Shown piece after piece: positions 3,326 through 23,466 of a stretch of DNA of 23,466 nt. The notes under the pieces are model-generated. The model was given only the letters and a program-made list of their open reading frames with translations. It was not told the origin of the DNA and made no database searches. The translations under genes and the position numbers were made by a program. The stretch spans positions 1-23,466 of IMG/VR virus record IMGVR_UViG_3300025645_000462. The stretch is one strand, 5' to 3'. How positions within the stretch are numbered: the first letter of the stretch is position 1; each line of letters begins with the position of its first letter. Source of the DNA: a virus.

Positions 3326-3552
3326 TCTCTTTCATCATGTCCCCCCTCGCAAAGCTCATTGTTCCCCTTCTCGCTGCAGCCGCCATATTCTTTATAGGCG
3401 CTCAGTGGGTCGCAAATGTTGAGCGAGAGGCCATCCGCGTCAAACAACTCGAAGTATTCGTCAAGACCACGGAGGTCATCAAGAATGTGGAAGTTTCTCC
3501 TACCCGTGCTGTTGCTATCGAGCGCCTGCACCACAACGGTTGGGTCCGCTGA
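3322..3552 (+). CDS. Rz: Inner-membrane spanin (Rz-like)
   Basis: 76 residues. A single N-terminal hydrophobic segment (about residues 7-28, LAKLIVPLLAAAAIFFIGAQ) is followed by a charged, helix-forming periplasmic part (VEREAIRVKQLEVFVKTTEVI). This is the i-spanin layout: anchored in the inner membrane, spanning the periplasm and meeting an outer-membrane lipoprotein to fuse the membranes at lysis. It is short compared with T7 gp18.5 (143 aa). Its second half overlaps the o-spanin gene in another frame, the classic Rz/Rz1 arrangement, which strongly supports the call. It overlaps the holin-candidate stop by four bases. Confidence 0.78.
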   Translation: MISFIMSPLAKLIVPLLAAAAIFFIGAQWVANVEREAIRVKQLEVFVKTTEVIKNVEVSPTRAVAIERLHHNGWVR

Positions 3553-3673
3553 CGCTATCTGCGACATACCCACCCCTACGTTCACAGAGAAAGAGCTAAT
3601 ACTCCTCTCTGATGAGACCCTGAGCGGTCTCGATGTGTTCGCTGCACAACTAGCAGCGGCCTGTAGCCTCTAA
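3485..3673 (+). CDS. Rz1: Outer-membrane spanin lipoprotein (Rz1-like), nested out of frame
   Basis: 62 residues from ATG 3485. The frame is open from 3416, but only this start puts the signal peptide at the N-terminus: MWKFLLPVLLLSSAC gives a basic residue, a hydrophobic core and a lipobox-like SSAC with the lipidated Cys at residue 15. The -3 residue is Ser rather than the usual Leu, so the lipobox is slightly off consensus. The mature part is about 48 residues and has two further cysteines. The gene starts inside the Rz-like gene in the +1 frame and runs 121 bases past its end, an overlapping rather than fully embedded spanin pair. Confidence 0.75.
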   Translation: MWKFLLPVLLLSSACTTTVGSADAICDIPTPTFTEKELILLSDETLSGLDVFAAQLAAACSL

Positions 3674-3679
3674 ACCACC

Positions 3680-3728
3680 CCTAGAACCTCCCCATACAGC
3701 TCTCTCAGTGCCCTGAGGGTGTTCTAGG
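3680..3728 (+). terminator. Stem-loop between spanin genes and terL
   Basis: CCTAGAAC (3680-3687) and GTTCTAGG (3721-3728) are perfect 8-bp inverted arms around a 33-base loop that can extend the stem with mismatches. No T-run follows, so this is a weak intrinsic terminator at best. It could instead be an RNase processing site that separates the lysis and terminase messages. Confidence 0.4.
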
Positions 3729-3785
3729 CGGCTACCCCCACTCAAATGCAATACATACGCCTCAGTAAGGCTTACAGGAGGCCTC

Positions 3786-5471
3786 ATGGCTCACATCCCA
3801 GACAGTGCATTCCACAAGAAACTCAGAGCGGACTTCAAGGTCTTCCTCTGGTACGTCCACCAGTATCTCAATCTGCCCGAACCGACCCCTCTGCAGTATG
3901 ACATCGCCGACTTCCTGCAATACGGAAAGAAGCGTTCCTGCATTCAGGCGTTCCGGGGCGTGGGTAAGTCCCACATCACTGCCGCATACGTCGTCTGGAG
4001 GCTACTCTGTGACGCCGAGGCGAAGATCATGGTGGTGTCGGCCTCCAAAGAGCGAGCCGATGCCTTCTCGACCTTTACACAGCGTCTCATATGGGAAATG
4101 GAAGGGATCGAGTACCTCCGTCCTAGCTCCGACCAGCGTCAGTCCAAGATTAGCTTCGACGTAGGCCCTGCGACAGCCTCTCAGTCCGCCTCGGTCAAGT
4201 CCGTGGGCATCACCGGCCAGCTTACCGGCTCCCGCGCTGACCTGATCATCGCCGACGACATCGAGGTGTTGAACAACGTCTTCACACAGACCGCCCGGGA
4301 TCGTCTCTCGGAGGCCGTGAAGGAGTTCGACGCGATCCTCAAGCCGCTCCCTACGAGCCGCATCATCTACCTTGGTACACCCCAGACCGAGGACAGCCTC
4401 TACACCAAGCTCCCTGAGCGTGGCTACGATCTCCGCGTATGGCCAAGCCGTATGCCCGACGACAACGCCAAGGAAGGCTACGGTGACACCCTCGCTGAGT
4501 ACATCACCAAGCTCCCCTACGCTGTGGGGCAACCTACCGACCCCCTACGCTTTGACGATAGCGACCTGATCGAGCGGGAGGCCTCCTATGGTAAGGCTGG
4601 CTTCGCGATGCAGTTCATGCTCTCAACCTCCCTGAGTGACACCGAAAGGTTCCCTCTCAAGGTCCGTGATCTGATCGTCATGCCGATCGACCCGGAGACA
4701 GCACCTCTCAAGTTGCAGTGGGGTCCACTCGAGGACCGTGTGTTCCGTGACCTGCCCTGCGTTGCCATGCGGGGCGACCGTATGTTTCCACCTATGAACG
4801 TCGGGGATATCACCTCGGAGTTCACCGGAAGCATCCTCGCGATTGACCCTGCGGGACGGGGTAAGGACGAAACAGGCTATGCCGTGATCAAGATGATCAA
4901 CGGTTACCTCTACGTTCCGGCGTGTGGTGGTCTCCAAGGGGGCTACGACAAGGACACCCTGTCCGAGCTTGCCCACATCGCCAAGAAGCACAAGGTGCAT
5001 GAGGTGATCTACGAGAGCAACTTCGGTGATGGTATGTTCGGTGAACTGCTCAAACCAATCCTCGCCAAGATACACCCGTGTACACTCGAGGAGGTCCGTC
5101 ACTCCACCCAGAAGGAACGTCGGATCATCGACACCCTCGAACCTGTGATGATGTCCCACAAGCTGGTCATCTCCCCAGAGGTCATCGAGAACGACTATCG
5201 GACTGCCATGAAGTATGAGCAGGCTGTGCGTCAGTCGAAGATGCTGATCTACCAGATGACACGTCTGACAGCTATGAAGGGTTGCCTCCGCCACGATGAC
5301 CGGTTGGATGCCTTGGCTATCGGGGTGGCTCGGTTCACTGAGCAGATGGCAAGGGATGAAGAGATGGGTATTGATCAGATCAAGCAGGATGCTCTGGACA
5401 GTGCCCTCGAGAACTTCATGGACAATGCCTTCGGTCGTCTTCCAGCTACTGCTGGGAACACGTGGATGTAA
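3786..5471 (+). CDS. terL: Terminase large subunit (T7 gp19-like)
   Basis: 561 residues, close to T7 gp19 (586). It is the ATP-driven packaging motor and the nuclease that cuts concatemers. The ATPase domain shows a Walker A-type FRGVGKS with K61 and a Walker B run DLIIADDIE (about residues 152-160). The nuclease domain shows acidic motifs in LAIDPAGRGKDETGYAV (about 350), VIYESNFGDGMF (about 405-416) and HDDRLDALAIGV (about 503-514), the RNase H-like metal site. A strong ACAGGAGGCC precedes the ATG. It is followed by a long noncoding region with a phage promoter, as T7 gene 19 is followed by the right genome end. No small-subunit partner is recognisable nearby. Confidence 0.96.
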   Translation: MAHIPDSAFHKKLRADFKVFLWYVHQYLNLPEPTPLQYDIADFLQYGKKRSCIQAFRGVGKSHITAAYVVWRLLCDAEAKIMVVSASKERADAFSTFTQRLIWEMEGIEYLRPSSDQRQSKISFDVGPATASQSASVKSVGITGQLTGSRADLIIADDIEVLNNVFTQTARDRLSEAVKEFDAILKPLPTSRIIYLGTPQTEDSLYTKLPERGYDLRVWPSRMPDDNAKEGYGDTLAEYITKLPYAVGQPTDPLRFDDSDLIEREASYGKAGFAMQFMLSTSLSDTERFPLKVRDLIVMPIDPETAPLKLQWGPLEDRVFRDLPCVAMRGDRMFPPMNVGDITSEFTGSILAIDPAGRGKDETGYAVIKMINGYLYVPACGGLQGGYDKDTLSELAHIAKKHKVHEVIYESNFGDGMFGELLKPILAKIHPCTLEEVRHSTQKERRIIDTLEPVMMSHKLVISPEVIENDYRTAMKYEQAVRQSKMLIYQMTRLTAMKGCLRHDDRLDALAIGVARFTEQMARDEEMGIDQIKQDALDSALENFMDNAFGRLPATAGNTWM

Positions 5472-5820: not shown

Positions 5821-5826
5821 CTAGTT

Positions 5827-5855
5827 TTGGGAGAAATATCTGAGGGGTCTATAAT
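5827..5855 (+). promoter_or_regulatory. Candidate host sigma70 promoter for early genes
   Basis: A perfect -10 box TATAAT (5850-5855) follows a -35-like TTGGGA (5827-5832; TTG..A matches) at a 17-base spacing. It is the best sigma70-type match I found by eye between terL and the early genes and points toward them. It lies about 900 bases before the first gene, so a long leader would be made. Confidence 0.45.
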
Positions 5856-6092
5856 ACGTGATCCTTCCGCCGCCACCCCCCTTGGGGGCCTCGAGAGGGC
5901 CGAAAGCAAGGCAATGGGGACGGGGGGCACGTCCGATGTGACACCGATGACCACGCAAGGCCTTGTTTGCATGGTCCCACGCGGTGGAAACTGACCATCG
6001 GTGACGAGGGGTGACCTCGAGTTGGGTCCGATCCGGTCCTATTCGTATGTGTGTCTTCATGCCTTTTGTGTGATAGTATAACACCAGCCTCG

Positions 6093-6163
6093 CGCACACC
6101 TGACGCACACCTGACGCACACCTGACGCACACCTGACGCGCACCACGCGCACCACGCGCACCA
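6093..6163 (+). repeat. Minisatellite: 4 x CGCACACCTGA then 3 x CGCGCACCA
   Basis: Four exact 11-base units start at 6093, 6104, 6115 and 6126. Three exact 9-base units CGCGCACCA start at 6137, 6146 and 6155. The units differ by an internal TG-containing segment, so one array may have arisen from the other by slippage. Reading frames through it on the minus strand encode only Cys/Val/Ala runs and are not genes. Confidence 0.95.
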
Positions 6164-6165
6164 CG

Positions 6166-6188
6166 CACACACACACACACACACACAC
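6166..6188 (+). repeat. (CA)n microsatellite, 23 bases
   Basis: An uninterrupted alternating CA tract directly follows the minisatellite and is succeeded by a GC-rich stretch (to about 6235). Alternating purine-pyrimidine DNA of this length, next to CG-rich alternation, can adopt Z-DNA under supercoiling and is unusual in a compact phage genome. Confidence 0.95.
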
Positions 6189-6296
6189 GCACCCACGCGC
6201 CCGAGCGCACACACGGACGCGAGCGGGGCGCGGGCAATCTATCTCTGATCACGAAAGGATCACTCGAGATCCGCCTAGGGTGATTCGTTTTATGGT

Positions 6297-9333: not shown

Positions 9334-9681
9334 ATGGCTTCTTCAAAGGAAATTAGAACAGCGATCCGCCTACTCGAGACGTTCAAGCGTATCGATCCCG
9401 ACATCACCCTGCCTTCTATGCTCACATTCCTCTACGCAGTGGAACGTGACGGACAGGCGGGCAACCAGTTCGAAATCGATCAACGCCTCGATATGTCAGG
9501 CGCAACTGCCAGCCGTGCCATCGCGCACTGGTTGGACTACAAGCGGCCTCGTGTCGCTGGCCTGAACATGGTGGAAAGCATCCCAGATCCTGAGGACCGC
9601 CGTTACAAAGTCATCACCCTGAACCGTCGCGGCCTCGACTTCGCCGCCAAGATAGAGGAAGCAATCAATGGCACGTCGTAG
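9334..9681 (+). CDS. MarR-type winged-helix DNA-binding protein
   Basis: 115 residues. The central part shows the winged-helix pattern: MLTFLYAVERDG (helix), QFEIDQRLDMSGATASRAIAHW (recognition helices, about 48-70), then a wing with the typical DPEDRRYKVITLNRRG (about 89-105). MarR-like proteins repress or activate by binding palindromic DNA as dimers. The first helices are short, so it may be a minimal form. It overlaps the integrase by 14 bases and is probably translated with it, so a role in controlling integration or lysogeny is a reasonable inference. GTGACAC repeats at 11237-11273 are possible targets. Confidence 0.78.
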   Translation: MASSKEIRTAIRLLETFKRIDPDITLPSMLTFLYAVERDGQAGNQFEIDQRLDMSGATASRAIAHWLDYKRPRVAGLNMVESIPDPEDRRYKVITLNRRGLDFAAKIEEAINGTS

Positions 9682-10714
9682 AGGTACAAGCTGGCAGGGG
9701 GCTCTCAAGACACCCGAGAAATACTTCCGGTTCTCCTTCGCCACCGAGGCACAGGCCTTGGAATGGGAAGGTGCAGCCCGAGAGGCCCGTAAACTAGGGT
9801 GGCCGATCCCGATGCCTACAGTCACTTCGGAGCGCCCGACGTTGGATGGTTTCTTCGAAGAGAAGAAGCTATCGATCTGGGCAGACAAGCTGTCACGCAA
9901 CGTCGAGAGCAACCACAGGGCATGTGTCCGTTTCATAGGGGGTGACACCCTGCTGACCGACATCACGCTTAAAACAGCCACCCTGTGGGCAGAAGACATG
10001 CGCAACCGACGTCAGGTGCCTGCTACAATCAATACTCGGTTGTCTCATCTGAAGGTTCTCTTGCGATATGCTAAGAAGCTCGATTTGGTAGAGACTGAGT
10101 TCGACTTCCCTTGGGCCAACACCGTGGACAACTCGAGGCTCCGCTTCCTGACCGGAGATGAAGAGAAGGCGCTGCTCGATCTGCTGTCCCATTGGGGCCG
10201 TGAGGATATGGTGAGCCTGATCGCAACACTGATCGACACCGGATGCCGCCCCTCCGAGTTGATCTCGGGTGAGAGCAGGGGTGAGCCGATCAGGTGGACC
10301 GAGGTCTCTGTCTCCGCCGGGGGCACCGCGCCTGACGTCAACGATCCTGCCACGGGTAAGCCTAAGGCGGTCATCAGCCTGCTCAGAACGAAGACCGACA
10401 AGTACCGCGTCCTGCCTCTCACGGATCGGGCCAGAGATGCCTTCCTGCGGAGCAAGGCGCTCGGCGAGACGCGGCCCTTCGGTGACATCAGGGTGGACAC
10501 GGCTAGTGCTGCCTTCCGCATGGCTGCGAACCACCTCAAGATGGACGCCGTGGTCCTCTACACCTGCAGACACACCTGCGCCTCACGTCTGGTGCAACGA
10601 GGGGCTGACCTTCGGCGTGTCATGCAGTGGATGGGCCACACAAACATCAACACGACGTTGAGGTACGCCAAGCTGACCCCGACTGACATCTTTGCAATAG
10701 GAGATTTACTATGA
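9668..10714 (+). CDS. int: Tyrosine recombinase / phage integrase
   Basis: 348 residues. The N-terminal part (about 1-60) is basic and likely binds arm sites; about 55-150 is a core-binding SAM-like domain. The catalytic domain shows the first Arg in TLIDTGCRPSELI (about 183-195), Lys in LRTKTDKYRVLPLT (about 240-253), the box II YTCRHTCASRLVQRG (HxxR with Tyr in place of the first His, about 298-312), and GHTNINTTLRYAKL with the nucleophile Tyr (about 323-336). All active-site positions but the first His are seen. T7-like phages with integrases are known (for example in cyanophages and pelagiphages), usually with int just before the RNA polymerase, as here. Confidence 0.93.
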   Translation: MARRRGTSWQGALKTPEKYFRFSFATEAQALEWEGAAREARKLGWPIPMPTVTSERPTLDGFFEEKKLSIWADKLSRNVESNHRACVRFIGGDTLLTDITLKTATLWAEDMRNRRQVPATINTRLSHLKVLLRYAKKLDLVETEFDFPWANTVDNSRLRFLTGDEEKALLDLLSHWGREDMVSLIATLIDTGCRPSELISGESRGEPIRWTEVSVSAGGTAPDVNDPATGKPKAVISLLRTKTDKYRVLPLTDRARDAFLRSKALGETRPFGDIRVDTASAAFRMAANHLKMDAVVLYTCRHTCASRLVQRGADLRRVMQWMGHTNINTTLRYAKLTPTDIFAIGDLL

Positions 10715-10902
10715 GCGTATCAAACGAAGAACAAGCCCACGCCTGTCTGGGCGTTCTGGGTAGGCGGTATCGCGAGGACTGGTCGGACTTCGACGGGAAG
10801 ACACTCCGATACGAACTGGCTGATGTCTCTTCCGTTCTGAAAGGTGATATGACCTACGCAGAGTTCTCAGACAGAAATATACCTGATTGGATGAAATCAT
10901 GA
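10711..10902 (+). CDS. Small hypothetical protein (63 aa)
   Basis: 63 residues from ATG 10711, overlapping the integrase TGA and preceded by TAGGAG. The sequence is acidic with two predicted helices and aromatic residues (REDWSDFDGKTLRYELADV). No family is recognised. It could be an excisionase-like accessory by position, but it has no basic winged-helix look, so I do not claim that. Its stop overlaps the next start (ATGA). Confidence 0.6.
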   Translation: MSVSNEEQAHACLGVLGRRYREDWSDFDGKTLRYELADVSSVLKGDMTYAEFSDRNIPDWMKS

Positions 10903-10985
10903 GCATGACAGCAAAAGGCCTGATCTTCATCATCGCTGCCTACGTCATCGTTTGGACAGTCATGACGATCTACGACAACCTTTAA
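10899..10985 (+). CDS. Tiny membrane protein (28 aa)
   Basis: 28 residues (MSMTAKGLIFIIAAYVIVWT...). Nearly the whole length from residue 7 to 24 is hydrophobic, a single transmembrane helix. ATG 10899 overlaps the TGA of the preceding gene. It belongs to the int-downstream small-gene run. No function can be assigned. Confidence 0.5.
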   Translation: MSMTAKGLIFIIAAYVIVWTVMTIYDNL

Positions 10986-11000
10986 GGGAGAGGAAACACA

Positions 11001-11240
11001 ATGAGCAATGAAACCCTACACGATAAGATCACAGAAGTTCTTTGTGATGCAGCACCTATTGAGTACCCGCAAAGCGTTGCCGACGCCATCCTAGCCACCA
11101 TCAAGGCTGACAACGACGCCAAGGACAGCCGGATTGAGGAACTTAAGGCACTGGTGCATAAACTGGCATCCGATCCTGATTATACCGCGGCCTATGTGGC
11201 TGGTGTAGCTGACCAGAAAGCCACCCTCGAAGAACTGTGA
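11001..11240 (+). CDS. Small helical hypothetical protein (79 aa)
   Basis: 79 residues, acidic, mostly helical (VADAILATIKADNDAKDSRIEELKALVHKLA looks like a coiled coil, about 27-57). AAGGGAGAGG lies just upstream of the ATG, a strong site. The coding sequence ends exactly where the GTGACAC repeat block begins: the first GTGACAC contains its stop codon. No family is recognised. Confidence 0.65.
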   Translation: MSNETLHDKITEVLCDAAPIEYPQSVADAILATIKADNDAKDSRIEELKALVHKLASDPDYTAAYVAGVADQKATLEEL

Positions 11241-11273
11241 CACCTCATGTGACACTCATGTGTCACGTGACAT
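11237..11273. promoter_or_regulatory. Operator-like GTGACAC repeat cluster
   Basis: GTGACAC occurs directly at 11237 and 11249, inverted (GTGTCAC) at 11260, and as GTGACAT at 11267. TGTCACGTGACA (11261-11272) is a perfect 12-bp palindrome, and GTGACAC-TCAT-GTGTCAC (11249-11266) is a perfect stem. Four half-sites at 11-12 and 7 base steps look like a protein-binding array. It sits between the int block and the RNA polymerase gene. Confidence 0.6.
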
Positions 11274-11278
11274 AAAGA

Positions 11279-11347
11279 ATACCGTAACTACAGAGACTTA
11301 GGAGTGACCTTCATGGAAATACTCCACCGTTTTAATAGTTACGGTAT
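11279..11347. repeat. 12-bp perfect inverted repeat with inner stem
   Basis: ATACCGTAACTA (11279-11290) and TAGTTACGGTAT (11336-11347) are perfect inverted arms. Within them GGAGT (11301-11305) pairs with ACTCC (11321-11325). It could be a stable RNA structure, a terminator-like barrier for the early operon, or integrase binding sites of an attP. There is no tRNA-like core sequence here that I recognise. Confidence 0.6.
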
Positions 11348-11376
11348 CCTAATCCTTTCTCAGCTACCTGTTTATT

Positions 11377-11393
11377 AAGGGCCAAAAGCCCTT
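11377..11393 (+). terminator. Stem-loop AAGGGC-CAAAA-GCCCTT
   Basis: A perfect 6-bp stem (11377-11382 with 11388-11393) with a five-base loop. CCCGC follows instead of a T-run, so intrinsic termination is uncertain. It would separate host-driven early transcription from the phage promoter 78 bases downstream. Confidence 0.4.
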
Positions 11394-11470
11394 CCCGCTA
11401 CGCACCTCCGACGCTTACGGCATCGTAGAGGTCATCAACCATATGGTCACATCGATATCCTAAGGATTTT

Positions 11471-11495
11471 GATTAGGGACCCCATCAGTATGTAT
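11471..11495 (+). promoter_or_regulatory. Phage promoter before the RNA polymerase gene
   Basis: GATTAGGGACCCCATCAGTA matches the family consensus ATTAGGGACCCCAYCAGTAT over its whole length; TGTATCC follows instead of AACCC. It is 17 bases before the polymerase ATG. ATCCTAAGGAT (11457-11467), a hairpin-forming palindrome, precedes it. Transcription of the polymerase gene by its own product is implied. Confidence 0.7.
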
Positions 11496-11511
11496 CCGAA
11501 AGGTTAACTCT

Positions 11512-14028
11512 ATGAACACTCAAGTTATCACCGATGATCTCCTGAACGAGCAGATCCGGCTGGAAGAAGAGATGCGGGCTGTGACCGTTGATCGCTACTT
11601 TAAGAACCACGAGAAAGCAGCAGAGCGCGGTGAGTTCGCTGACACACACGCTGGCCGCAATGTTATGTCCGCAGTCCTCGACAAGTTCGTTGAGGGTATC
11701 GATGCATGGTGCGACGACTTCCGTACAGGAAAGGCAGGCCGACGCCCCCGGGCAATGCACATGATCGATCAGTTCGGTGACACACGGAAGATGGCCTACA
11801 TCTACGTCAAGAACGTCCTCAACCTGATCTACATGCTGGAGCGGGGTAAGAGCGGTGTAGCCAAGCGGACCTCGGTCGCACTGATGTGTTCGCAGGGTAT
11901 CCACGACGAGTTCCGTATCCAGTATTTCATGGACAACCGGAAATCACTGCTAAAGGCGATCCTCAAGGACTTCAAGAAGCGTGACGTAAACCGTGCCCGT
12001 CGTCGGCAGTTGCTGCAGCGTACATTCAAGGCGCAGCAGATCGATTGGGTCGCAGAAGGGTGGGGTCAATCCGAGCGCCTGAACCTCGGTCTGGTCCTGA
12101 CAGACGTATTCCGTAAGACCACTGGACTGATCGAAGAGATCACATCCCGTGATCACAAGGGGCGTACTCAGGTCTCTCTCCAAATCACCAAGGAGTTCAA
12201 CGAAGCCCTCCTAGATAAGATGGAGAACTCAAGCAATATGTTCACCCTCTTCTATCCAACAGTCATCCCTCCGAAGGAGTGGCAGTCGGGTGAGTTGATC
12301 GGGGGCGGGTACTACACGGACAACATCCAGCCGTATCGCCTGATCAAAGGGGCAAAGCCGAAGTACCTCTCGGAGATGGAGAACCGAGATATGTCAGAAA
12401 TCCTGACACCCCTCAACGCTATCCAGAACACACCTTGGCGTGTCAACAAAACCATGTTGGCAGTCCTGACACAGGTGTACGAGGCAGGCATCAACGTCAA
12501 CGGTCTGATCACATCGGACCACAAGGACCTCCCAGAGCCTCCCGTTGGTTTCAAAGAGGAAGGCCAAGAGGACATCACCAAGGAGTACAAGAAGACCTGC
12601 TTCATCATCCACGATGAGAACCGTCGCAACATCTCAAAGCGTCTTGCGGTCATCCGCACGATTGCTCTGGCGGGCAAGTTCTCTGCCTACGACAGCATCT
12701 ACTTCCCACACGATCTCGACAGCCGTGGCCGTGCCTACCCTCGTCCACACTTCCTGACCCCTCAAGGGGCGGATTATTCCAAGGCACTCTTGGAGTTCTC
12801 CGAAGGTAAGGTCATCGAGAGCGAAGACGACATCATGTTCCTTGCCATCGCAGGGGCCAACGCATGGGGTCAGGACAAGCTCCCGCTGCATGAGCGGTAC
12901 GAGTGGGTCATGGACAACCAAGACCTCTTCTTGGACATCGCTGAGGACCCTATGGGCGATCTGCGGTGGACCAAGGCCGACGAACCCTTCATGGCTCTCC
13001 GGTTCTGCCTCGAGTGGGCAGGTCTGGCCGAGCAGGGTGTTGGTGTCTTCAAGACCACGATGCCGGTTCACTTCGATGCAACCTGCTCCGGTCTGCAGCA
13101 CTTCTCTGCGCTCCTTCGGGATCGCGAGGGGGGCACACACGTCAACCTGACGAACTCAGGGAAACGTGAGGACATCTACGGCGAGGTCGCACGGAAGGCG
13201 ACTGCATCCGTCGAGGCGCTTCTCAATGACGACGAGTTCGGCGCAATCGCACGGATCGCCCTCGACATCGGGATCACCCGTTCTCTCTGCAAGCGTCCTG
13301 TCATGATCGTCCCGTATGCTGGAACATTCTCTTCCTGTATGCAGTACGTGAACGACTACTACCGTGAGCAGTCCGAAGAAGGCCTCGTGCTACCCCTCGA
13401 TCTGGATGAGATGCGTAGTATGGTGACACCCTTCGTCGCCAAGCACATCTGGGCTGCTATATCGGGCACCGTGATCGCGGCTCGTGAGGCAATGGATTGG
13501 ATCACAGCAACAGCCAAGCTGGCATGCACTGCCCAATCCTCCACTCCTCTTCAATGGACCACACCGGATGGCTTCATCATCCAACAAGCGAAGTACAAGG
13601 AGAGCGAAAGCCGTATCAAGACGTACCTCGACGGGGAACGTACTGTGCGCAGCCACGTCTATGCTGAGACCAACGTCTTGGATGCACGTCGCAATGCACA
13701 GTCACTCAGCCCAAACTACATCCACTCGATGGACGCCTGCCACATGCGAAAGTCCATCTCGCTTGCATTGGCATCGGACCGTAACTTGAGCTTCGCCATG
13801 ATCCACGACAGCTTCGGTTGCCATGCGTCAGACATGAAGTGGTTTCTTGCGGAATGCATCAAGCCTGCCTTCGTCGATATGTACGAGGGCGGCAAGAACC
13901 TCGAGTTGTTTAAGGAGCAAATGATGGTCAACATCCCGGACGACAAGCGCGATAAGGTGCGTGATCTACCACTCATGGGTTCATTGGATTTATCCGAGGT
14001 TCTCTCGAGCGAGTTCTTCTTCTCGTAA
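11512..14028 (+). CDS. gp1: Single-subunit (T7-type) DNA-directed RNA polymerase
   Basis: 838 residues (T7 883). Catalytic residues are in place: D522 in FDATCSGLQHFSALLRD (T7 D537), K594 in KRPVMIVPYAG (T7 K631), Y602 in the same motif (T7 Y639, sugar selection), and D766 in MIHDSFGCH (T7 D812). The SMDACHMRKSI stretch before the last Asp also matches T7. The C-terminus ends FFFS, comparable with the FAFA end of T7 that sits at the active site. The N-terminal domain is shorter and diverged, as is promoter recognition. Start ATG 11512 is preceded by CCGAAAGG. It would transcribe the replication and late genes from the ATTAGGGACCCC promoters. Confidence 0.97.
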   Translation: MNTQVITDDLLNEQIRLEEEMRAVTVDRYFKNHEKAAERGEFADTHAGRNVMSAVLDKFVEGIDAWCDDFRTGKAGRRPRAMHMIDQFGDTRKMAYIYVKNVLNLIYMLERGKSGVAKRTSVALMCSQGIHDEFRIQYFMDNRKSLLKAILKDFKKRDVNRARRRQLLQRTFKAQQIDWVAEGWGQSERLNLGLVLTDVFRKTTGLIEEITSRDHKGRTQVSLQITKEFNEALLDKMENSSNMFTLFYPTVIPPKEWQSGELIGGGYYTDNIQPYRLIKGAKPKYLSEMENRDMSEILTPLNAIQNTPWRVNKTMLAVLTQVYEAGINVNGLITSDHKDLPEPPVGFKEEGQEDITKEYKKTCFIIHDENRRNISKRLAVIRTIALAGKFSAYDSIYFPHDLDSRGRAYPRPHFLTPQGADYSKALLEFSEGKVIESEDDIMFLAIAGANAWGQDKLPLHERYEWVMDNQDLFLDIAEDPMGDLRWTKADEPFMALRFCLEWAGLAEQGVGVFKTTMPVHFDATCSGLQHFSALLRDREGGTHVNLTNSGKREDIYGEVARKATASVEALLNDDEFGAIARIALDIGITRSLCKRPVMIVPYAGTFSSCMQYVNDYYREQSEEGLVLPLDLDEMRSMVTPFVAKHIWAAISGTVIAAREAMDWITATAKLACTAQSSTPLQWTTPDGFIIQQAKYKESESRIKTYLDGERTVRSHVYAETNVLDARRNAQSLSPNYIHSMDACHMRKSISLALASDRNLSFAMIHDSFGCHASDMKWFLAECIKPAFVDMYEGGKNLELFKEQMMVNIPDDKRDKVRDLPLMGSLDLSEVLSSEFFFS

Positions 14029-21342: not shown

Positions 21343-22159
21343 GACCATCCTGCTCGACGCAGACATCACGGCCTACCAGATTGCTTCCACGCATGAAGAG
21401 GTCTTTAACTTCGGTGGGCAGGAAACCCGTGTAGCTGATCTGCCCAAGGCCCAGAAGGCACTGGACAAGCACATCAAGCACATCCGCAAGATCAGCCATG
21501 CGACCAACATTATCCTCTTCCTCACCGAGGGGGACAACTTCCGCAAGGGTGTTCTACCCACCTACAAGGGCAACCGGAGCGGCATGGCGAAACCCCTGAT
21601 CCTCTACGAACTCAGGGACTACATGCGGGCCAACTACACCGTGATAGATGAACCGGGGATCGAAGCTGATGATCTACTCGGTATTCACGCCACGATGCCC
21701 CACAAGGGTGAACGGGTGATCTGGAGTGCCGACAAAGACCTCAAGACTATCGCCGCGCTTCATTGGGACCCCGAGGACGGACAGCCTATCAAGGTGACCG
21801 ACCAAGAGGCCGACCGCTTCTTCTATGAGCAGATCATCACTGGCGACCCGACGGACAATTACAAAGGTTGTCCCGGCGCTGGTGCGAAGGCTGCTGCTGA
21901 CCTCCTAGACTACCGAGTAAAGTGGGTGAAAACCTCACGTATCCTCAAGTCCGGTAAGAACAAGGGCCAAGAGAAGATCGAGTGGATCAGACAGACCCTC
22001 GAGCCTCATGAGGGCTGGTGGACTTCTATCGTCAGTGCTTACGAAAGAGTAGGCCTTACCGAAGCCGATGCTCTCGTCCAAGCCCGCTGTGCCCGCATCC
22101 TGCGCCACGGAGAATACAACTTCAAAACCAAGGAGGTATCCTTATGGAACCCGGAATGA
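21332..22159 (+). CDS. gp6: 5'-3' exonuclease (T7 gp6-like)
   Basis: 275 residues from ATG 21332; the open frame extends back to 21254 but overlaps the Cys-rich gene more. The 5'-nuclease pattern is clear: LLDADITAYQI (about 7-17), LFLTEGDNFRKGVLPTYKGNR (about 62-82), EADDLLGIHA (about 110-119), WSADKDLKTI (about 130-139), and TGDPTDNYKGCPGAGAKAA (about 169-187), where acidic residues bind two metals and the last part is the helix-hairpin-helix. It removes RNA primers and degrades host DNA. It is shorter than T7 gp6 (300 aa). The stop overlaps the next gene by 16 bases. Confidence 0.93.
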   Translation: MHHRTILLDADITAYQIASTHEEVFNFGGQETRVADLPKAQKALDKHIKHIRKISHATNIILFLTEGDNFRKGVLPTYKGNRSGMAKPLILYELRDYMRANYTVIDEPGIEADDLLGIHATMPHKGERVIWSADKDLKTIAALHWDPEDGQPIKVTDQEADRFFYEQIITGDPTDNYKGCPGAGAKAAADLLDYRVKWVKTSRILKSGKNKGQEKIEWIRQTLEPHEGWWTSIVSAYERVGLTEADALVQARCARILRHGEYNFKTKEVSLWNPE

Positions 22160-22629
22160 CATTTAAGGGAGGCGACCGTGTCTCAAGGCGTGATGGCGGC
22201 ACGTTCTCAAACGGTAACCATGTCGTAACCGTGAAGGCACCAAGTGCATCGCTCCCCTATGCTATTTGGTTCGAAGAAACTGACACATGGAGTTCTGCAA
22301 GTAGCCTCCAGTTGGTTTCGAGTGCGCCGATGGAGGACCTCTTCCCTGAGACACCTAAAGTCACCCGTCAGTCCGTCCTTGATGAAGCCTCTAAGTTGAT
22401 CAACGAGGATCGTGCCTCCGACTATGGTGATCCTAAGGTCATGCACCAACTGATCGGTGACTTCTGGTCTACCTATCTGGGTCTCGAGACCAAACTTACG
22501 CCTGACCAAGTGGCGATGATGATGGCTCTCATGAAGATCGCACGTTCCACAAGTTCACCCAAGTTCGACACCTACGTTGACCTAGCAGGCTACGCAGCCC
22601 TCGCTGGTGAAATGAGCATTCAAGGGTAG
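22144..22629 (+). CDS. Protein with C-terminal DUF6378-like domain
   Basis: 161 residues from ATG 22144, set by a strong AAGGAGG (22130-22136) seven bases upstream. The first 60 residues (FKGGDRVSRRDGGTFSNGN, then VTVKAPS) look like a small SH3-like beta domain. Residues about 79-160 (VLDEASKLINEDRASDYGD, FWSTYLG, MMMALMKIAR, TYVDLAGYAALAGE) match the phage DUF6378 pattern. The domain ends in the usual place, so the gene seems complete. Its TAG lies at the edge of a structured region. Function is not known to me; a link to nucleotide metabolism is suggested only by the neighbouring thyX. Confidence 0.82.
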   Translation: MEPGMTFKGGDRVSRRDGGTFSNGNHVVTVKAPSASLPYAIWFEETDTWSSASSLQLVSSAPMEDLFPETPKVTRQSVLDEASKLINEDRASDYGDPKVMHQLIGDFWSTYLGLETKLTPDQVAMMMALMKIARSTSSPKFDTYVDLAGYAALAGEMSIQG

Positions 22630-22790
22630 CGCCCTCGGCCAGACCGTAAGGCTAACGGTGACAAGCAGGGAGAGACCTGCACAAACATACCCACCTATGC
22701 ATCTATTGACGTTTGTAAGGTGGGAAAGTCGTGGACTACTCAGACTGAAACACCGGAAGTCTCCTGCAGGGGCACCGGGCGTCCACGCAC
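22623..22790 (+). ncRNA. Candidate structured RNA before thyX, group I intron-like elements
   Basis: Complementary segments: AGGGT/GCCCT (22623-22627, 22631-22635) closed by U-G; CCGT/ACGG (22644, 22655); GCAGG/CCTGC (22665, 22676); ACAAAC/GTTTGT (22681, 22711); CCCACCT/AGGTGGG (22690, 22718), which interlaces with the last as a pseudoknot; AGACT/AGTCT (22742, 22758); CGTGGAC/GTCCACG (22730, 22781). CGGTG (22656) also pairs with CACCG (22751), between the two AGACT arms, as P3 does with P7 in group I introns. A normal P8 is missing. It may be a degenerate or reduced intron, a cis-regulatory leader for thyX, or a chance cluster. Confidence 0.4.
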
Positions 22791-22817
22791 CCTTATTCAA
22801 CACATCAAGGACACCTC

Positions 22818-23466
22818 ATGAAAGCTACATACAAAGACCACATGGGCGGGGACCTGTCCGTGGTTAACGCCGCTCGGGTCTCCTTCGGGAAAGAGAGCGA
22901 AGCCCTCACCAAGGGGGACGAAGGGCTGATCCAGTTCCTAGCTCGAGGTTGTACCTCAGGTGATTGGGATGCCCACATCAATAGCCTGCAGGGTATCATT
23001 GATCGTGAGGCCATCGAGGATGTACTCCGGTACGTCAAGAAGATGCCCGATCACTGGACACCCTTTGGGCACACCGCAATCACCCTCCACATGAAGGCAC
23101 CTATATTCATCGCGAGGCAACTCGGGAAACATCAGGTGGGCATGGTGTGGAATGAGGTGTCTCGTAGGTACGTCTCGGATACCCCTGAGTTCTATGTACC
23201 TGATCAATTTAGGAAAGCAGCGGATAACGTGAAGCAGGGGTCCAGCACCGAAGCTGCCTACACCCGCGTCACACCTTGGAAGCTATTTGAGTACCAAGCA
23301 GAAACCTACCAAGAACTACTAGATGAAGGCGTCTGCCCAGAGCAGGCCCGCATGGTTCTCCCTCAGTCCATGTACACCGAATGGTACTGGACGGGTAACC
23401 TCTACTCCTTCGCCAACGTGTTCGTCCAGCGCACCGACAGTCACGCCCAGCGCGAGTGTCAGGACA
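22818..23466 (+). CDS. thyX: Flavin-dependent thymidylate synthase ThyX (3' partial)
   Basis: The first 216 codons are visible; the window cuts the gene. ThyX methylates dUMP to dTMP with FAD and methylene-folate. Family marks: VVNAARVSFGKES near the N-terminus (about 15-27), WTPFGHTAITLHMKAPIFIARQLGKHQVGMVWNEVSRRYV in two parts (about 76-115), carrying the ThyX motif, and the C-terminal RMVLPQSMYTEWYW (about 177-190). The motif reads KHQ...NEVSRRY rather than the canonical RHRxxSxNExSxRY; such variants occur in phages. Start ATG 22818 has CAAGGA six bases upstream and matches usual ThyX N-termini. It supplies thymidine nucleotides for phage replication. Confidence 0.95.
   Translation, partial: MKATYKDHMGGDLSVVNAARVSFGKESEALTKGDEGLIQFLARGCTSGDWDAHINSLQGIIDREAIEDVLRYVKKMPDHWTPFGHTAITLHMKAPIFIARQLGKHQVGMVWNEVSRRYVSDTPEFYVPDQFRKAADNVKQGSSTEAAYTRVTPWKLFEYQAETYQELLDEGVCPEQARMVLPQSMYTEWYWTGNLYSFANVFVQRTDSHAQRECQD

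Follow-up and report, generated by a model that had tools for sequence, protein, structure and literature searches.

The window, a stretch of 23,466 nucleotides that covers positions 1 to 23,466 of the IMG/VR virus record IMGVR_UViG_3300025645_000462, carries near its end two plus-strand genes: one with a C-terminal DUF6378 domain (22144..22629; PF19905, E=2.3e-27) and thyX (22818..23465; PF02511, E=5.2e-40), which runs off the window. Both are complete as far as the window extends, and a gap of 188 nt (22630-22817) separates them. At this junction lies a conserved RNA element on the plus strand (22623..22681), which comprises a hairpin P1 (22623..22635, AGGG-UAGCG-CCCU) whose loop holds the TAG stop of the DUF6378 gene (22627-22629), a hairpin P2 (22643..22659, ACCGU-aaggcua-ACGGU), a spacer GACAA (22660..22664; GACA, GACAG or GACAA in the family), a hairpin P3 (22665..22680, GCAGG-GAGAGA-CCUGC) and a final A. 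The unit is kept in the related contigs L084, L085 and L088 and in the aligned group of window-type copies. Two more plus-strand pairings follow outside it, a hairpin CCCACCU..AGGUGGG (22690..22724) and a helix CGUGGAC..GUCCACG (22730..22787). L084 also has two hairpins after the element, with a merely similar layout and a different sequence, and the stretches that hold them (22684-22800 in the window, about 2087-2200 in L084) both end in a shared GCACCCTTATT before the next gene; these hairpins may be a further, variable RNA module. A T7-type RNA polymerase (PF00940) is encoded by the window phage, and the element lies beyond it. This polymerase occurs together with an integrase gene (PF00589) at 9668-14028. 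Elsewhere, 5821-6252 consists of low-complexity repeats in which minus-strand ORFs read CVCVCV and GARGARGAR, and no genes were recognised in that stretch.

A first-pass annotation of this DNA had described the gap as a densely paired, pseudoknotted RNA of group I intron-like architecture, and had proposed a degenerate intron, a compact ribozyme or a ligand-sensing thyX leader. The complementary stretches that it named are present, its gap length is right, and a structured RNA does start at the DUF6378 stop codon. The pairs it counted exist, but their number is what dinucleotide shuffles yield: 38 perfect helices of at least 4 bp against 38.4 ± 4.9, and 4 of at least 6 bp against 2.4 ± 1.4, while 31 of 200 shuffles equal or exceed the gap in interlaced pairs. 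Folding of the gap is mildly more stable than that of shuffles (z about -2.1 to -2.5), and the core at 22640-22683 reaches z = -3.5. The interlaced pair ACAAAC/GTTTGT finds no support, as L084 and L085 keep ACAA and not the partner strand. The P1-like helix at the TAG stop is real and conserved (loops UAGCG, UCGCU or UCGCG), but it is an ordinary hairpin and marks no splice site. A kissing contact between UAGC of the P1 loop and GCUA of the P2 loop, perfect in the window, was dropped because relatives do not keep it.

Relatives also separate the element from thyX. Upstream regions collected from thyX relatives in IMG/VR (L003 onward) hold other sequences and lack the RNA, and where relatives of the RNA occur, the feature downstream is another gene or a tRNA, so we rejected a thyX-linked leader. 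L084, L085 and L088, which are relatives in the DUF6378 gene and DNA polymerase, keep the first 60-80 bases of the gap, although the downstream neighbour varies: L085 has a small ORF there, L084 a small ORF and ribonucleotide reductase, and L088 another gene. No Rfam 15 family matches the element above threshold in the window, its relatives or the other copies scanned, and no known ribozyme or riboswitch matches at lax thresholds; three lax matches for the window lie far below threshold and outside the gap. A search of open-access papers for the element sequence found nothing relevant. Measured against Rfam 15 and these papers, we judge the element to be an apparently undescribed phage RNA family.

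Each stem is supported by comparison among copies. P3 pairs in 126 of 128 matches to a pattern that left four P3 positions free, whereas about 14% would do so by chance. P2 was in none of the search patterns, which makes its count unbiased: a perfect 5-bp complement stands near the bases before GACA in 69 of 160 non-redundant copies, against 15 ± 3.5 with strands permuted. An alignment of 26 copies, a set chosen by P2, is 97.7% paired, compared with 84.0% when shuffled and 17-40% when slid, and contains compensatory changes in both P2 and P3. The arms of P1 change in step across 20 window-related copies (CTTAGG/CCTAAG, CCACGG/CCGTGG, GTAGGG/CCCTAC, CTTCGG/CCGAAG). A covariance model (R1) of 26 copies, from which window-type members were left out, still finds the window at 22641-22683 (E=3.3e-8). 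The P3 loop varies among GAGAGA, GAAAGA and GCGAGA; among cases selected for a P2 stem, TGAC and then a 5-bp hairpin whose 6-nt loop was left free, 69 of 71 have GAGAGA and two GAAAGA, which speaks for consistency and not independence, as GAGAGA was part of the patterns that retrieved most of these loci. In some members with longer P2 loops, a pseudoknot seems to arise from pairing of an upstream strand with the 3' part of the loop: 6-bp pairings between P1 and the P2 loop number 7 against 1.8 for loops of 10-16 nt and 13 against 6.4 for loops of 17-32 nt, with none clear in longer ones. This excess is moderate and absent from the window subgroup, and we rejected a general pseudoknot because it appears in part of the loop-length classes only; such pairing is likely limited to a subgroup of copies. 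Together, these comparisons show that 22623-22681 specifies an RNA structure of the transcribed strand, kept by compensatory change and belonging to a large unnamed phage family. They likewise show a family core of P2, GAC(A)(R) and P3 with a GNRAGA loop, preceded by a P1 hairpin or, in some members, by a strand that appears to pair with the P2 loop.

The exact pattern GACAAGCNGGGAGAGACCNGC (19 bases; P3 core and spacer) occurs in 61 IMG/VR contigs, where from the collection size we expect about one chance match for 19 fixed bases, and the sister pattern TGACAGCNNGGAGAGACNNGC occurs in at least 120. A 21-base version has three matches in 84,980 bacterial and archaeal genomes. Matches at E <= 1e-6 were found in 4 of 298 further Pseudomonadota genomes, one near repressor genes and another adjoining a phage-family gene, neighbours that make these matches likely prophages; given this and the rarity in cellular genomes, the family is mainly phage-borne. 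Sequence matches place the predicted element in hundreds of tailed phages of very different bacteria. Carriers infect Pseudomonadota, Bacteroidota, cyanobacteria and actinobacteria, and include phages of Caulobacter (CcrPW, BL57), Rhizobium (B1VFA), Planktothrix (Pag-Yong1), Microcystis (Mwe-JY26), Cronobacter (CS01), E. coli (mEp390), Klebsiella (P7641), Mannheimia (587AP2), Erwinia (phiEt88), Acinetobacter (Alexa), Stenotrophomonas (BUCT708, Pokken), Pseudomonas (Medea1, Itty13), Rhodobacter (RcCWillis), Gordonia (Sour), Vibrio (1.033.O) and Bacteroides (BS-TP2). In 36 of 5,426 E. coli genomes, the chromosome holds sequences related to parts of the mEp390 leader. A match in JBD68 (E = 0.42, coding) was discarded as chance.

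Copies sit on the same strand as the genes downstream. A tRNA gene starts 5-32 nt downstream, mostly 5-13 nt, in 21 of 185 copies, always on the same strand and never antisense, and start codons bearing a Shine-Dalgarno (SD) sequence are concentrated 13-30 nt downstream, where 52 of 181 copies have one; the corresponding figure for the opposite side is 17, and for random positions 16%. Two to several copies stand in series at many loci, and major capsid genes lie upstream in several. No common function was found among downstream genes at the loci examined. Promoters are not enriched upstream of the IMG/VR copies, nor is boxA beside copies (2 of 203 sites, 0.7 expected); intrinsic terminators are weakly enriched downstream of the IMG/VR copies (6 within 100 nt, about 1.9 expected), and none was seen between the element and thyX in the window. 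In the Caulobacter phages CcrPW and CcrColossus (L164, L169), several diverged copies with altered P3 loops are spread across the tRNA region.

Lambda nut or qut and HK022 put are found in the leader beside the repressor or in the region after Q. An untranslated early-operon leader beside the repressor holds the element in mEp390, P7641, BUCT708, Medea1, 587AP2 and Aggregatibacter S1249. In mEp390 it lies 370-400 nt after a sigma-70-like promoter, between a CI-type repressor and the leftward early operon; BUCT708 has four copies in the leader after its early promoter, the third and fourth being separated by an intrinsic terminator; Medea1 carries it in a long leader after cI, with a terminator downstream; and in 587AP2 and S1249 it follows the repressor. 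The copy of phiEt88 stands after Q, before a tRNA and holin. By analogy, the positions in temperate phages are those of antitermination sites (nut, put, qut). The early leaders of mEp390 (L295, 2600-3290), P7641 (L302, 1960-2600) and BUCT708 (L304, 1800-2560) are untranslated RNAs of 600-700 nt that contain, besides at least one copy of the element, long hairpins ACAAC..GCGCATTCC / GGAGTGCGC..GTTGT, apparently conserved too; none of the hairpins of these three leaders matches Rfam above threshold.

The element most likely acts on the polymerase or the transcript that makes it. Our tentative preference, at a little under an even chance and by analogy with HK022, is that it works in cis as a put-like nascent-RNA antiterminator. 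The RNA would fold on leaving RNA polymerase and stay bound to the elongation complex. This complex could then pass terminators as well as untranslated stretches, among them tRNA clusters, long early leaders and operon junctions; for the window copy, the place of action would be the junction between the DUF6378 gene and thyX. We count for this reading the RNA-level stems, the strand-bound placement upstream of genes and the leader positions in temperate phages. As the hosts span several phyla, a universal partner such as RNA polymerase is to be expected. We propose put-like working and not membership of put, because leader positions and shape are similar but the model has no match at put. Counted against antitermination are the lack of a visible terminator before thyX, of promoter enrichment and of boxA enrichment, and the weakness of the terminator enrichment. 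An antiterminator would not need to fit so tightly against tRNA 5' ends and SD sequences, which also counts against the reading, and the T7-type polymerase makes it less certain for the window phage, where the phage polymerase is expected to transcribe the element.

An RNA-processing element, either a self-cleaving ribozyme or a host-nuclease site, by which tRNAs or mRNAs would be released from long phage transcripts, is unlikely but the best of the alternatives. The positions by tRNAs and capsid genes would fit a processing site or ribozyme as well as an antiterminator. The location at gene junctions, close to tRNA starts and start codons, the tandem copies and the absence of promoter enrichment suit processing, which is moreover independent of polymerase type and thus suits the window phage. 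Yet the element resembles no Rfam ribozyme family, most tRNAs in a cluster do without it (L176 has 15 tRNAs and two model matches), and some copies stand in leaders, hundreds of nt away from any gene. The known ribozymes of phage tRNAs, the theta ribozymes, sit at tRNA 3' ends (PMC10879173).

We consider it improbable that an RNA-binding protein of phage or host binds the element, either as a nut-like site for an N-type antiterminator or as a site for a stability or translation factor; the GNRA-type P3 loop would then be the contact, like boxB. The GNRA start is kept in all three loop variants and the positions match nut sites, and the mEp coliphage collection has been described as Nus-dependent in a paper that does not name mEp390 itself (PMC11893012); against this, boxA is not enriched and phages whose hosts belong to several phyla share this RNA, whereas N-type proteins are phage-specific. 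Protection of downstream RNA from exonucleases, which would make the element a stability element, is more improbable still: a compact fold directly 5' of genes and tRNAs would suit it, and no specific evidence speaks against it, but in Alexa two copies lie 3' of the integrase gene and not 5' of a gene.

A group I intron before thyX, intact or degenerate, has practically no probability: some complementary stretches do stand in P3/P7 order (CGGTG..CACCG, AGACT..AGTCT), but they fall at least partly outside the conserved part and find no support in relatives, helix number is at chance, Rfam gives no group I match in the stretch at gathering level or at E up to 10, both flanking genes are complete, and the conserved unit P1-P2-GACAA-P3 lacks the group I order, relatives keeping P1-P2-P3 alone. 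The misfits that the first-pass annotation conceded, no space for P8 and no need of splicing in either flanking gene, hold. The same kind of scan does detect a true group I intron (RF00028, 54.5 bits) in L100 at 3521-4109, preceded by a copy of the element at a distance of less than 1 kb.

We also entertain a wider claim, with slightly less confidence than the antiterminator reading: that phages infecting Pseudomonadota, Bacteroidota, cyanobacteria and actinobacteria share a new RNA class which serves as a universal RNA-only expression device, either by modifying the RNA polymerase of the host or by cutting phage transcripts itself. If true, RNA-only control of phage transcription or processing would be testable by a simple reporter, and the family extends to a cultivated phage of E. 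coli and to prophage leaders in this species that are related to the leader of that phage. It would also annotate many "empty" phage intergenic regions and tRNA-cluster spacers.

Among known RNAs, group I introns (RF00028) share nothing with the element beyond chance pairings, their core helices being absent from the window RNA. Theta ribozymes, which are HDV-like, are likewise small structured RNAs of phage tRNA clusters, but the new RNA lies 5' of tRNAs, has a different fold and no Rfam match. Lambda nut (boxA-boxB) shares the leader position and a hairpin with a GNRA-like loop, whereas the new RNA lacks boxA and an N protein in common with it, and has P2 as an additional conserved stem. To our knowledge, few phage RNAs influence transcription without the help of a protein, the main ones being HK022 put and its relatives. 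The put RNA acts in cis on elongating RNA polymerase and suppresses termination via the beta' zinc-binding domain. In its published structure, a pseudoknot comes first and a hairpin second, and an A.G contact is made where the two meet (PMC9378689). HK022 putL and putR resemble the element as phage RNAs of about 60-80 nt that act in cis, putatively so in the case of the element, in their leader position in lambdoid phages, and in a possible purine pair at the junction (A9.G35 in put; an A before P2 and a G after P2 in the new RNA). The new RNA can likewise be drawn with a pseudoknot or hairpin ahead of a second hairpin. They differ in that put has a longer stem II and another order and other lengths of loops, and the covariance model has no match anywhere in the HK022 genome at E <= 0.01, nor at put itself at E <= 1; unlike put, the new family also stands before tRNAs, in tandem and in virulent phages.
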